Source of the DNA: Bacillota bacterium
Lineage (GTDB): Bacteria; Bacillota; Sulfobacillia; Symbiobacteriales; ZC4RG38
Reading direction: 5' to 3'
NCBI GenBank assembly: GCA_021890795.1
Contig: JAKKUO010000011.1
Location: 1 to 51,447 of the forward strand
DNA length: 51,447 bases
The position numbers were made by a program, and so were the translations under genes. Positions 2,643 to 45,430 of this stretch are shown here, piece after piece; position 1 is the first letter of the stretch; each line of letters opens with the position of its first letter. Below the pieces are notes generated by a model. It ran no database searches. It was given only the letters and a program-made list of their open reading frames with translations, and was not told where the DNA came from.

Positions 2643-3407
2643 TTGCTCTTTGACACCCACTGCCACCTGGACCACAGCAAGTTCGACGAGGACCGGACCG
2701 AGGTGCTGGAGCGGGCCCGGGCGGCGGGGGTCGGGCTGATGATGGTGGTCAGCACCTCGGAGGCCAACTCCCGGCAGGTGCTAGCCCTGGTGGAGCAGCA
2801 CCCGGACCTCTACGCCGCGGTGGGGGTCCACCCCAGCGACGCTGCGGCCTGGGACGAGGGCACCTACGCCCGGCTGCGGGAGCTGGCCCGGCATCCGAAG
2901 GTCCGGGCTATCGGGGAGATTGGCCTGGACTACTACTGGGATTACCCCCGGGAGGCCCAGTTCCGGGCCTTCCGGGCCCAGATCCGGCTGGCCCGGGAGC
3001 TGGGGCTGCCCATCGTCATCCACGACCGGGACGCCCACGAGGACGTGGTCCGGGTTCTGGAGGAGGAAGGGGCTGGCGAGGTGGGGGGCATCATGCACTG
3101 CTGGTCCGGGGACTGGGCCCTGGCCGAGCGGTGCCTTGCCCTGGGATTCTACCTTGGCTTTGGCGGGACCCTCACCTACCCCCGGAACGAGGCGATCCGG
3201 GAGGTGGCCCGGCGGGCCCCCATCGACCGGATCGTCATCGAGACCGACAGCCCCTACCTGCCCCCGGTCCCCCACCGGGGACGGCGGAACGAGCCCGCCT
3301 ACGTCCGGCACGTCGCGGAATTCCTGGCGGAACTCAGGGGAATGGCATATCCCGATTTGGCGGCGTTGGTGACGGCCAACGCCAAGCGGCTGCTCCGAAT
3401 CCCTTGA
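2643..3407 (+). CDS. tatD: TatD family metal-dependent DNase
   Basis: A 254-aa TIM-barrel hydrolase of the TatD/YabD family; members show metal-dependent 3'-5' exonuclease activity on DNA. The TTG start follows AGGAGAGGAGGCAGGAGG. Expected metal ligands are visible: H6 and H8 in THCH, E92 in IGEIGLDYYWD, H127 in VIHDRD, H152 in MHCWSG and D202 in ETDSPYL. The length is standard. It lies directly downstream of metG, the order found in B. subtilis (metS-yabD) and many Firmicutes. Confidence 0.93.
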   Translation: MLFDTHCHLDHSKFDEDRTEVLERARAAGVGLMMVVSTSEANSRQVLALVEQHPDLYAAVGVHPSDAAAWDEGTYARLRELARHPKVRAIGEIGLDYYWDYPREAQFRAFRAQIRLARELGLPIVIHDRDAHEDVVRVLEEEGAGEVGGIMHCWSGDWALAERCLALGFYLGFGGTLTYPRNEAIREVARRAPIDRIVIETDSPYLPPVPHRGRRNEPAYVRHVAEFLAELRGMAYPDLAALVTANAKRLLRIP

Positions 3408-40045: not shown

Positions 40046-41229
40046 AGAGAAGCACCCCCCAGGGCGGCCATCTGCTCCGGGCCGAAGAAGGTCCGGAGGG
40101 CCTGGTAGACATCGCCCTTCTCCCGGATCACCGTGGCGACGAACCGGGGGTTCTGGATCTCTTTGGTAAAGAGGGTGTAGAGGGTGGTGCTGCGGTAGTA
40201 GCCGGAGCCGGCCGGGTAGCTGTCGATCTCCCCGTAGCCCACCAGGCTGCTCACCTCCACGAGCCGGCGCATCATCTCCAGGGCCCGGGGGTTGTCGGAG
40301 GCGAGGTTGTCGCCGTCGCTGAAGTGGAAGGGGTAGAGGTTGTACTGGTCCGGCGGGTACCGCCGGGCGATGATCTCCAGGGCCAGCTCGTAGACCGACG
40401 AGCACCGGGTGCCCCCGGACTCCCCTTTGGTGAAGAACTCCTCCTCGGTCACCTCCCGGGCCTCGGTGGAGTGGGCCAGGAAGCAGATCTGGACGTTGTC
40501 GTACTTGGTCCGCAGAAACCGCACCATCCAGTAGAAGAAGGCCCGGGCGATGTACTTCTCAAACTCCCCCATCGACCCCGAGGTGTCCATCATCGCCAGG
40601 ACCACCGCGGCGGTCTCGGGCTTGTAGCTCTCGTCCCAGGTCTTGTACCGCAGGTCCTCCCGGCCAATGGGGTGGATCGACTGCCGGCCCCGGAGGGCGT
40701 TTCGCTTAAGGGCCTCGAGGATGGTCCGCTTCTTGTCGATGTTCGATTGCAGTCCCTGCCGCCGGACGTCGTTCCACTCGTAGCGCCGGGTGGTGAGGTC
40801 CGGCCGCTTCCGGGGGTCCAGGTGCGGGAGCCCCAAGTCCTCGAAGATCAGGTTGCCGATCTCGTCGATGGTCACCTCTGCCTCGTAGTAGTCCTCCCCC
40901 GGCTGGTCCCCCGGGGCGCCGGGGCCCCGACCGGCGCCGGCCGCGGGCCCCTCCCGGCCGATCACTTGCCCCTTGCGGGTATCCCCCGGCCCCTGCCCCG
41001 CCCGTTCCTGCTTCTGGTAGTTGTAGCGGAAGCGGTACTCGTTCAGGGAGCGGATGGGGACCTTGATCACCCGCTGGCCGTCGCTGGTGATGATCGCCTC
41101 GTGGCTGACGATGTCCGCCAGGTTGTTCTTGAGGGCCTCCCGGACCTTCTCCCGGTGCCGCTCCTGGTCCATCTGCCCCTGCCGATGCAGGGACCAGTCC
41201 TCCCGGGTGATGGTGAAGTAGGTGGCCAT
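40042..41229 (-). CDS. yhbH: DUF444 protein YhbH/YeaH, VWA-like
   Basis: A 395-aa protein with an N-terminal helical region (VREALKNNLADIVSHEAIITSDGQRVIKVPIRSLNEYRFRY), a Gly-rich linker (75-115) and a C-terminal von Willebrand A-type domain with the MIDAS motif DTSGS (215-219). The family is tied genetically to PrkA and SpoVR; in B. subtilis yhbH is a SigE gene involved in sporulation. ATG 41229 lies directly after the prkA stop, spaced 12 bp. Confidence 0.94.
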   Translation of the reverse strand: MATYFTITREDWSLHRQGQMDQERHREKVREALKNNLADIVSHEAIITSDGQRVIKVPIRSLNEYRFRYNYQKQERAGQGPGDTRKGQVIGREGPAAGAGRGPGAPGDQPGEDYYEAEVTIDEIGNLIFEDLGLPHLDPRKRPDLTTRRYEWNDVRRQGLQSNIDKKRTILEALKRNALRGRQSIHPIGREDLRYKTWDESYKPETAAVVLAMMDTSGSMGEFEKYIARAFFYWMVRFLRTKYDNVQICFLAHSTEAREVTEEEFFTKGESGGTRCSSVYELALEIIARRYPPDQYNLYPFHFSDGDNLASDNPRALEMMRRLVEVSSLVGYGEIDSYPAGSGYYRSTTLYTLFTKEIQNPRFVATVIREKGDVYQALRTFFGPEQMAALGGASL

Positions 41230-43149: not shown

Positions 43150-43487
43150 CTTCCACACCCTCCTTGTGCCGAGCCGGAGAGCCGGCCGCAACCGACCGCT
43201 GGCGGCGAAGGGCCGGGGAGACAAAGAGCCGCCGGGTCCGTCCGTGGACAGGGGAACCGGGTGGACGTGACGCCAGCGGCTTACCTCTATGAAGCGGCCA
43301 GAGGCAACGAATTGTAAAGATGTTCCCGTCGATTTTGGCTGGCAGCGTGGCCGTCAGGGCAGGCCTCTCCGCCGGCGCCGGGTCAGTCGCAGCAGACTCC
43401 CGTTATCTGGTTATCACCCGACCCGGCGGTCCATATACATAAGCCGTGACAGCCTGGCAGGGACAACCGTGCAAGGGGAGAGGAACC
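43150..43487. other. Divergent intergenic region prkA / yabP
   Basis: 338 bases without a gene. The prkA side is GC-rich with no clear promoter; the yabP side carries the SigE-like element. The middle (around 43300-43335) is AT-richer, without a recognised motif. Confidence 0.5.
43410..43440 (+). promoter_or_regulatory. SigE-like promoter of yabP
   Basis: GTTATC (43410-43415; a second copy at 43402), 16 bases, CATATACAT (43432-43440), loosely fitting the mother-cell SigE pattern (-35 KMATATT, -10 CATACAAT). yabPQ are SigE-dependent in B. subtilis. The -35 match is poor. Confidence 0.4.
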
Positions 43488-43811
43488 ATGCCCGAGGAGA
43501 AGTCCTTCCGGTCCGGGGAGATGCGGGGCGGCAGCCCCGAACACAACCTGACGGTGGTGAACCGGGAGCAGGTGGTGGTCTCCGGGGTGGCCGCGGTGGC
43601 GAGCTTTGACGACCAGGAGATCGTGCTGGAGACCGAACTGGGCAGCCTGACCATCCGGGGGGAAGAGCTGCACATCAAGCAGCTCGACCTCGACTCGGGA
43701 CGGTTTGCCGTCGACGGGCTTGTCAACGCCCTCATCTACACGGGCCGCACCGGGCGGCAGGCCAGCCGGGGTCGGAACCGGGGCGGGCTCCTGGATCGGC
43801 TGTTGCGATAA
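43488..43811 (+). CDS. yabP: Sporulation protein YabP
   Basis: A 107-aa YabP/YqfC-family protein: HNLTVVNREQVVVSGVAAVASFDDQEIVLETELGSLTIRGEELHIKQLDLDSGRFAVDGLVNALIYT is the full domain, a beta-rich fold seen in spore-assembly proteins. ATG 43488 follows GGGGAGAGG. A Arg-rich tail (GRQASRGRNRGGLLDRLLR) ends it. In B. subtilis YabP and YabQ are mother-cell proteins; yabQ is required for spore cortex. Confidence 0.93.
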   Translation: MPEEKSFRSGEMRGGSPEHNLTVVNREQVVVSGVAAVASFDDQEIVLETELGSLTIRGEELHIKQLDLDSGRFAVDGLVNALIYTGRTGRQASRGRNRGGLLDRLLR

Positions 43812-43937: not shown

Positions 43938-44552
43938 ATGCCCGCTTTGGAGCTCCACCTCTATGGCTTTCTCACCCTGGTGCTGACCGGGGTGGCCGCC
44001 GGTCTGGCCTTCGACGTCCTCCGGGCCATCCGGCGCCGGCTCCTGCCGGGGAGGCCGGTGGCCCCACTCCTCGACCTGGCCTACGGAGTGGCCCTCGGCG
44101 GACTCCTGGGCGCCGGCCTGTTCCTCGCCAACCGGGGCGAGCTTCGGCTTTACGTCTTCCTGGGGGTGGCGACCGGCGCCGCCCTCTACTTCACCCTGGG
44201 CAGCCCGGTGGTGCTCTGGACCCTGGAGGGCATCCTGAGCCTTGGGGCGCTTCTGGCCGGGTGGGTCTGGGGAGCGGTGCAGGTCCTGGTTATCCGGCCC
44301 GGTGCCTGGGTGGCAGGGCGGTTCCTCTGGCTCCTCAAGGTCCTGGGCCAGATGGCTCAGGGTCTGGGCCGCCTGGCCGCGGCCCCCCTGCGGCCCGGGG
44401 TTCGCCGGGCCCGGCGATGGGCTGGAAGCACCTGGGTGGGGCGTGCCCTGCGCCGGCTCCTGGCGTGGCTCCTGCCGCCGGCGGACCCGGGCGGTCCGCC
44501 GGGGGAGGGAGCGGGCGGCGACCCGGGGGCCGGTGGCGCGGCCGGAGGGTGA
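43938..44552 (+). CDS. yabQ: Spore cortex membrane protein YabQ
   Basis: A 204-aa membrane protein of the YabQ family: four hydrophobic segments (LYGFLTLVLTGVAAGLAFDVLRAI, PLLDLAYGVALGGLLGAGLFL, LRLYVFLGVATGAALYFTLG, LEGILSLGALLAGWVWGAVQVLV) and a basic C-terminal part ending in a Gly/Pro-rich low-complexity tail. Required for spore cortex in B. subtilis. ATG follows GGGGGAGG. The 126-bp gap from yabP suggests co-transcription. Confidence 0.9.
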   Translation: MPALELHLYGFLTLVLTGVAAGLAFDVLRAIRRRLLPGRPVAPLLDLAYGVALGGLLGAGLFLANRGELRLYVFLGVATGAALYFTLGSPVVLWTLEGILSLGALLAGWVWGAVQVLVIRPGAWVAGRFLWLLKVLGQMAQGLGRLAAAPLRPGVRRARRWAGSTWVGRALRRLLAWLLPPADPGGPPGEGAGGDPGAGGAAGG

Positions 44553-44601: not shown

Positions 44602-44630
44602 GTTGCCTGCCTGTTGCCTGCCTGCTGCCG
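44602..44630 (+). repeat. Short TTGCCTGCC tandem repeat
   Basis: GTTGCCTGCCT occurs twice in tandem (44602-44623), followed by a partial GCTGCC unit, in the gap between yabQ and the HTH gene. Confidence 0.7.
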
Positions 44631-44699
44631 ATCGGCTGGCGGTCGCGACAAACGCGGGAATTCTTTGGCGATCCAGGAGGAGGATGGCGGCAGACACAG

Positions 44700-44776
44700 A
44701 AGTATAAATCCCGTACAAGGGATGTACACAGATTGTACTAAAGTTGTCCACAGCCCATCCACAGCCTGTGCACAGA
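44700..44776 (+). repeat. Seven-unit 11-bp phased array, DnaA-box-like
   Basis: Seven 11-base units start at 44700, 44711, 44722, 44733, 44744, 44755 and 44766, sharing NNGTNCANA: AAGTATAAA, CCGTACAAG, ATGTACACA, TTGTACTAA, TTGTCCACA, CCATCCACA, CTGTGCACA. TTGTCCACA is a known DnaA-box form in high-GC bacteria, and units 3, 6 and 7 differ from the DnaA box at two or so positions. The last unit ends 19 bp before the HTH gene start, so bound protein would block or stimulate it. Confidence 0.85.
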
Positions 44777-44792
44777 TGGGGAAGGATCCGCG

Positions 44793-45029
44793 GTGCAGAT
44801 CGAGATCCGCGGCGCCGAGAAGCTCAGCCACCGGGAACGCCAGGTGGTGGCCCTCAAGGAGATGGGATATAGCAACGAACAGGTGGCCAAGCGCCTCGGG
44901 CTGGCCCCTGGCACCGTCGCGACCCTCTACAACCGGGCCAAGGCCAAGGGCTACCAGGTGGTCATCGTGCTTTCCGGCGACCCGCTGGGTCTCTTTGAGG
45001 CGGCAGAGGAGGAGGACGAGGCCGAATGA
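44793..45029 (+). CDS. Small LuxR/sigma-region-4-like HTH protein
   Basis: A 78-aa protein. Residues 10-55 (LSHRERQVVALKEMGYSNEQVAKRLGLAPGTVATLYNRAKAKGY) are a clear LuxR/sigma-70 region 4 type helix-turn-helix; the rest (QVVIVLSGDPLGLFEAAEEEDEAE) is short with an acidic tail. No sensor or oligomerisation domain is seen. GTG start after GGAAGGA. Its stop overlaps the divIC ATG (ATGA), so it is coupled to a division gene. Not part of the B. subtilis yab cluster. The 11-bp array directly upstream may be an autoregulatory or DnaA-bound region. Confidence 0.78.
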   Translation: MQIEIRGAEKLSHRERQVVALKEMGYSNEQVAKRLGLAPGTVATLYNRAKAKGYQVVIVLSGDPLGLFEAAEEEDEAE

Positions 45030-45430
45030 GGGCGCAGGGTACTTACCCCAGCCTCCGGGGTCAGTGGCCGGAGGAGGTCTCCCGGTCCGTGCCGCCGCGC
45101 CCGCCCAAGCCGGGGCAGGGGCAGGTGGTACGCCGGTACTGGCTCTACGGGGTCTGCCTGGCGGCCATGGCGATGGCCGGCCTCTCCCTCCACGGGATGT
45201 TCCGGGCCCAGGAAGAACGGCTGGCCCGGCTCCAGGCCGAAGAGGCGGCGCTGCAGGCCCAGCTCGAGGCGGCCCGGAGCCGGAACCAGGCCCTGCGCCG
45301 GGAGATCGAACGGCTGCAGACCGACGAGTACATCGAGACCGTGGCCCGGAGCCAGCTGGGCTACGTCCGGCCGGGGGAGATTCCCTTCATGGCCCTGGAC
45401 CCGAAGCAGGGGAGCAGCGGCAACAATTGA
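45026..45430 (+). CDS. divIC: Septum formation initiator DivIC (FtsB-like)
   Basis: A 134-aa bitopic division protein: a proline-rich cytosolic N-terminus (1-36), one transmembrane helix (about 38-57, YWLYGVCLAAMAMAGLSLHG), a coiled coil (60-98, EERLARLQAEEAALQAQLEAARSRNQALRREIERL) and the conserved YIETVARSQLGYVRPGE. Forms a complex with FtsL and DivIB at the septum. Overlaps the HTH gene by 4 bases. Followed by a strong hairpin and a tRNA gene, as the tRNA operon follows divIC-yabR in B. subtilis; yabR is absent. Confidence 0.93.
   Translation: MRAQGTYPSLRGQWPEEVSRSVPPRPPKPGQGQVVRRYWLYGVCLAAMAMAGLSLHGMFRAQEERLARLQAEEAALQAQLEAARSRNQALRREIERLQTDEYIETVARSQLGYVRPGEIPFMALDPKQGSSGNN

Follow-up and report, generated by a model that had tools for sequence, protein, structure and literature searches.

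The window, by which we mean the whole stretch of 51,447 nucleotides analysed here, contains seven short sites at exact 11-bp steps that cover the expected start site of a sigma-H-type promoter and immediately precede the gene of a small helix-turn-helix (HTH) protein. We read this array, with a probability of about 0.58, as a cooperative DnaA-binding element over the start site that limits transcription of the HTH gene and, at most loci, of divIC with it. The HTH gene would then probably be switched by the replication-initiation protein DnaA. The computation establishes that the array exists, that its pitch is exact and conserved, that it goes with the HTH gene, that it lies on a sigma-H-type promoter and that it resembles a conserved DnaA-box module upstream of dnaA; DnaA binding, its 3′ to 5′ spread, repression and the role of the HTH protein are inferred.

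The array occupies 44700–44776, and its units start at 44700, 44711, 44722, 44733, 44744, 44755 and 44766, with no departure from the register. When seven consecutive units are scored with the motif of the sequence-only reading (GTnCAnA), the array reaches 31 of 35; scores run up to 22 at unrelated places elsewhere in the window and up to 20 in 20 first-order Markov simulations of its sequence. The claim of a seven-unit, 11-bp array before the HTH gene and divIC is confirmed. A scan of the window with a profile derived from homologs also returns 44700–44776 as the single array match. The strict form NNGTNCANA is present in three of the seven units (44722, 44744 and 44766), and the remaining four are off by one or two positions, including AT instead of GT at 44755 and T instead of the first A at 44733. 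The 5′ units AAGTATAAATC, CCGTACAAGGG and ATGTACACAGA (44700–44732, + strand) form a weak class with TGTA...A only, and unit 1, which overlaps the promoter −10 element, is the weakest of the array. The 3′ units are TTGTACTAAAG, TTGTCCACAGC, CCATCCACAGC and CTGTGCACAGA (44733–44776, + strand), of which the last three hold the ranks that are DnaA boxes in relatives (forward, then reversed). Compared with the DnaA consensus TTATNCACA, the unit at 44744 (TTGTCCACA) has one mismatch and the others two or more, giving one 9-mer within one mismatch and no perfect box. The window's own units are only fair as DnaA boxes, and the likeness is much clearer in relatives. A separate short 11-bp tandem repeat, GTTGCCTGCCT, is found at 44602–44629 upstream of the promoter; its sequence is unrelated to the array.

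The gene order around the array is yabP, yabQ, array, HTH gene, divIC and tRNA-Leu. The upstream neighbours are yabP (43446–43811, + strand, PF07873) and the spore cortex protein gene yabQ (43938–44552, + strand, PF09578). The HTH gene (44793–45029, + strand) encodes a 78-residue GerE/sigma-4-type protein; its ribosome-binding site GGGGAAGGA, read from the sequence, lies at 44778–44786 (+ strand) and its GTG start codon 16 bases past the array end. It is overlapped by divIC (45026–45430, + strand, PF04977), which by synteny shares the operon in most, not all, loci. Both neighbours 3′ of the array are those that had been named before.

The HTH protein matches PF00196 with 32.2 bits (cut-off 23.5) and PF08281 with 36.2 bits (cut-off 25.7), so that its HTH core belongs to the GerE/LuxR (NarL-type) family, as judged by PF00196 or sigma region 4. 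The gene is found in 54 of 61 related genomes, one of them (G031) counted by a weak generic HTH match alone, and at 80 further loci, including those of Moorella, Carboxydothermus, Carboxydocella, Desulfofundulus and Syntrophomonas. Identity across classes is 60–80%, and 21 residues are invariant across 32 diverse homologs. A confident structure model (pLDDT 87) predicts a strand-HTH-strand fold, and the top Foldseek matches of this model are VpsT, DosR, GerE and NarL, at weak E-values. The fourth (LuxR dimerisation) helix is absent from the model, in which a strand (residues 55–59) follows the helix of residues 39–52 and no helix is predicted beyond. Sequence look-ups for a named family or a solved relative gave generic HTH matches only, and the libraries searched hold no named function for the family.

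The array is conserved before the HTH gene in many spore-forming bacteria. Among 101 distinct upstream regions of homologous HTH genes, drawn from several Firmicutes classes, the self-match at lag 11 has a z-score of 39 and recurs at its harmonics, lags 22 and 33; of the 350 steps between units, 330 are exactly 11 bp. The spacing is thus kept in relatives, and the placement of all sites on one DNA face, proposed in the sequence-only reading, is borne out as a deeply conserved phasing. The unit profile from the homologs is [T/C]TGT[A/C/G][C/G]A[C/T/A]A, and 96 of the 101 regions outscore every one of 505 shuffles. Six low scorers were rescanned over 700 bases, which revealed strong arrays (scores 46–51) 129–473 bp upstream at four loci (L036, L044, L055 and L067), a short array at L095 (score 21) and a doubtful one at L104 (score 23). 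A convincing array is present in all but one of the 101 regions. Natural arrays have 3 to 8 units. A simple slippage repeat was rejected as an origin: the units differ in sequence, their rank-specific differences recur across several classes, and the pitch is kept. At L067, in the 180 bases leading up to the HTH start at 3001, about nine more 11-bp direct repeats follow downstream of the normal array; in this expansion the pitch is preserved and the unit is altered (CTTGGGATAAG / CTTGGGGTAAC).

DnaA-box likeness depends on the rank of a unit from the 3′ end. Units that match TTATNCACA with one mismatch or none occur in 71, 74, 66, 19 and 7% of loci at ranks 0 to 4, respectively. The last two units (ranks 0 and 1) are mostly reversed DnaA boxes such as TGTGGATAA and TGTGCATAA, and at the third from the 3′ end (rank 2) forward boxes prevail, with G as their third base, as in the window's unit at 44744. 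Farther 5′, only TGT(A)...A is kept. The letters of a unit covary such that a box is retained in one orientation: 69 cases are seen against 43 expected at rank 1 (shuffle maximum 54), and 61 against 35 at rank 2 (shuffle maximum 45), with shuffles that ignore relatedness. In about 70% of loci, 9-mers within one mismatch thus occupy the three 3′ positions, a likeness that few 5′ units reach.

A closely related layout is observed upstream of dnaA. In about 20 of 31 loci we find TTATGCACA(+)-11-TGTGGATAA(−)-12-TGTGnATAA(−)-11-TGTTGATA(−) or a near variant. This four-box module is class-wide and highly conserved (L168–L195); in this genome it lies at about 62050–62110 of contig C103 (L151/L167), and it could serve as an oriC marker. 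It is also present in genomes that lack the HTH gene (G026, G028 and G059; loci L183, L191 and L180). The array has the same layout of boxes, (+)(−)(−)(−), at nearly the same pitch. It differs in that the forward box is TTGT rather than TTAT, in that one 12-bp step of the module is 11 bp in the array, and in its 5′ TGTA units, which the module lacks. In the genus of G014 and G039 the array is reduced to three units, TTAT(A/G)CACA, TGTTGATnA and TGTGGACAA, so that oriC-like boxes lie under a sigma-H-type promoter. The description of the sites as DnaA-box-like thus stands for the three 3′ units in relatives, which are arranged as upstream of dnaA, and fails for the 5′ units. Conserved 11-bp phasing, together with 3′ units that resemble the dnaA-upstream boxes, makes a cooperative DnaA complex the most economical reading and DnaA the most economical candidate binder.

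The sequence-only reading missed a promoter just upstream of the array. In Bacillus subtilis, sigma-H promoters follow the consensus RnAGGAwWW, 11 or 12 bp, RnnGAATww. A looser form of it, with a spacer of 13 also allowed, was used for the search. The pattern nnAGGAnnn-N11/12-nnnGAAnnn occurs directly before the array in 74 of 94 loci, where shuffles expect 1.6. In the window, the match common to homologous loci gives a −35 element GGAGGAGGA at 44676–44684 and a −10 element ACAGAAGTA at 44696–44704 (both + strand), the latter overlapping array unit 1; from the usual distance between −10 and +1, transcription is expected to start near 44711. The gene of sigma-H itself (TIGR02859) is above cut-off in 57 of 61 genomes, including this one (contig C74), so both the promoter form, in its looser version, and its sigma factor are present. 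Measured from the end of the −10 element, the first base of the array lies anywhere from 14 bases upstream to 31 bases downstream across loci, in most cases 0–18 downstream, and the array therefore covers the expected start site and leader. A complex bound here would be expected to block transcription. Five Sulfobacillus-like loci (L010, L017, L023, L047 and L048) have, by eye, TATAAT directly before the array instead.

The array goes with the HTH gene and not with divIC. At seven loci (L035, L045, L046, L051, L061, L064 and L066) no divIC is detected nearby, and the array is still found directly before the HTH gene. In six genomes without the HTH gene, yabQ and divIC are adjacent, and no array is found between them or nearby. 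Because it is kept when divIC is elsewhere and absent where yabQ and divIC occur without the HTH gene, the array belongs to the HTH gene, and a role as regulator of divIC or yabQ was rejected. As for the proposed connection to cell division through divIC, this gene lies downstream and shares the operon in most loci, whereas the array tracks the HTH gene. When outside the divIC operon, the HTH gene is repeatedly found, by eye, near a coaBC-like (Dfp) gene (L036, L044, L045 and L066), which suggests an alternative neighbourhood. A strict link to sporulation was also rejected. G014 and G039 have no detectable Spo0A or YabQ, yet they keep the HTH gene, the array and the sigma-H-type promoter, and several genomes with Spo0A lack the HTH gene, among them the six with adjacent yabQ and divIC.

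The genome search for further arrays yielded one other strong array in this genome and no genome-wide regulon. This second 11-bp TGT array (TGTGGACAACT TGTGGATAGTG TGTACAAAGCC TGTCGATAACC) is at 40811–40862 of contig C17 (about 2311–2362 of L149) and precedes, by eye, an acetyl-CoA acetyltransferase-like (thiolase) gene. It is common only to the two species of the genus, the sister copy being at 248–288 of contig C77 in G001 (L165). In relatives of order f2 (L153, L155, L156 and L166) a conserved short 11-bp array, TGTGAATACCT TGTGAACACC..., adjoins what looks by eye like a HemW-like radical-SAM gene.

We propose that DnaA would nucleate at the 3′ boxes, the forward TTGTCCACA and then the reversed TTATNCACA boxes, and would extend 5′ along the weak sites, whose 11-bp spacing puts them on one DNA face. 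The resulting complex would cover the start site and limit transcription from the sigma-H-type promoter, which is predicted to drive the HTH gene and in most species divIC as well. Expression would need both sigma-H (transition phase) and the release or remodelling of DnaA, and through this dual need the HTH protein, and often DivIC, would be tied to the replication state.

The strongest competitor is autorepression, in which the HTH protein would bind the array as its own operator. Its monomers would each read TGTnnAnA within one 11-bp turn, head to tail and cooperatively over the start site, and the DnaA-box likeness would be incidental. TGT is found in nearly all units in one orientation, poor DnaA boxes included; this may reflect recognition by the HTH protein or by DnaA in the reverse sense. 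In forward boxes, position 3 is G in 80 of 88 array boxes and A in 76 of 102 oriC boxes (p = 3.5e-21), a preference for TTGT that selection for DnaA binding alone would not be expected to give; in reversed boxes array and oriC do not differ (p = 0.86). The array lies directly over the start site of the HTH gene, and, oriC aside, the search returned no further widely conserved gene with an array of this kind. Array and HTH gene also move together and are lost together, which fits autoregulation too. A head-to-tail operator, however, needs none of the full DnaA boxes of alternating orientation that are kept at ranks 0–2. The same module, moreover, is present at oriC in genomes that have no HTH gene, and the three-unit arrays of G014 and G039 break TGT in unit 1, giving TTATnCACA. 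We hold autorepression to be possible, though unlikely. A dual code is doubtful to a slightly greater degree: the HTH protein would read TGTnnAnA in all units, DnaA would read the 3′ boxes, and the two would compete, so that sigma-H-induced HTH protein on the DnaA boxes of oriC might restrain replication in the transition phase. Such a brake would, by analogy, be an uncharacterised site-competition counterpart of the Bacillus SirA/Spo0A brake.

The four to seven DnaA-like boxes, and a distance of roughly 60–210 kb from dnaA in closed genomes, would also suit an oriC-proximal locus that serves chiefly to titrate or reset DnaA, in the manner of datA or DARS, and regulates the HTH gene only secondarily. 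Conserved gene order accounts for the nearness to oriC, and the array stays with the HTH gene in new neighbourhoods, exactly on its promoter, which makes this reading improbable. Complementary TTGTCCACAA and TTGTGGATAA units might instead pair into hairpins of the transcript, and some leaders can do so (L081, z = −3.3). The window leader, however, folds no better than shuffles (z = +0.4; L028, z = −0.45), there is no Rfam match except tRNA-Leu, and a hairpin does not need exact 11-bp phasing with a one-sided TGT. A leader-RNA element is very hard to credit and was rejected. The units are also unlike the Spo0A box TGTCGAA, save in a few loci.

We found no earlier description of the HTH gene or the array in the open-access literature searched. 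DnaA-controlled promoters and DnaA arrays of 11-bp pitch are each already known, separately; what would be new is a conserved phased array that covers the sigma-H start of an HTH gene not characterised before. If the DnaA reading is true, an oriC-type array of the replication initiator has been placed on a promoter of the transition phase and has been retained there, site by site, in several Firmicutes classes. The state of replication would then be wired in a simple way to a nearly invariant DNA-binding protein, and often also to the divisome. An HTH family without a named function gains a direct route to study, and the natural series of 3 to 8 units could test DnaA assembly on low-affinity sites outside oriC.

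A comparison with known systems places the array close to oriC in its architecture. The low-affinity DnaA sites of E. coli oriC form clusters of four, 2 bp apart, which is an 11-bp pitch (PMC6070618), and weak sites are filled from strong boxes (PMC4451416). The array likewise consists, by sequence, of head-to-tail weak sites with 2-bp gaps beside a strong box, given its 11-bp steps and the strong reversed 3′ boxes of relatives. It shares with the E. coli arrays, which are flanked by R1 and R4 with R2 between, the strong end box, the weak 11-bp run and the weak-to-strong order (PMC6070618, PMC4285127). Unlike them, it is known from sequence alone, lies at a promoter and transcription start and not at an origin, and its weak units have TGT...A in common and are not I- or C-type sites. 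The HTH protein shares the three-helix HTH core with GerE/NarL-type regulators and differs from them in its 78-residue length, its strand-HTH-strand fold, its acidic tail and, in the model, the missing fourth (dimerisation) helix. DnaA is known to activate or repress promoters, among them that of the sporulation-checkpoint gene sda (PMC4447404, PMC8203912). At the B. subtilis sda promoter, as here, a cluster of DnaA boxes is found at the promoter of a small-protein gene in the context of transition phase or sporulation (PMC4447404, PMC8203912). In contrast to sda, the promoter here is of sigma-H type and the encoded protein, of HTH type, is not related to Sda. Furthermore, sda is activated by DnaA, whereas an array that covers the start site and continues downstream of it, as here, predicts repression.
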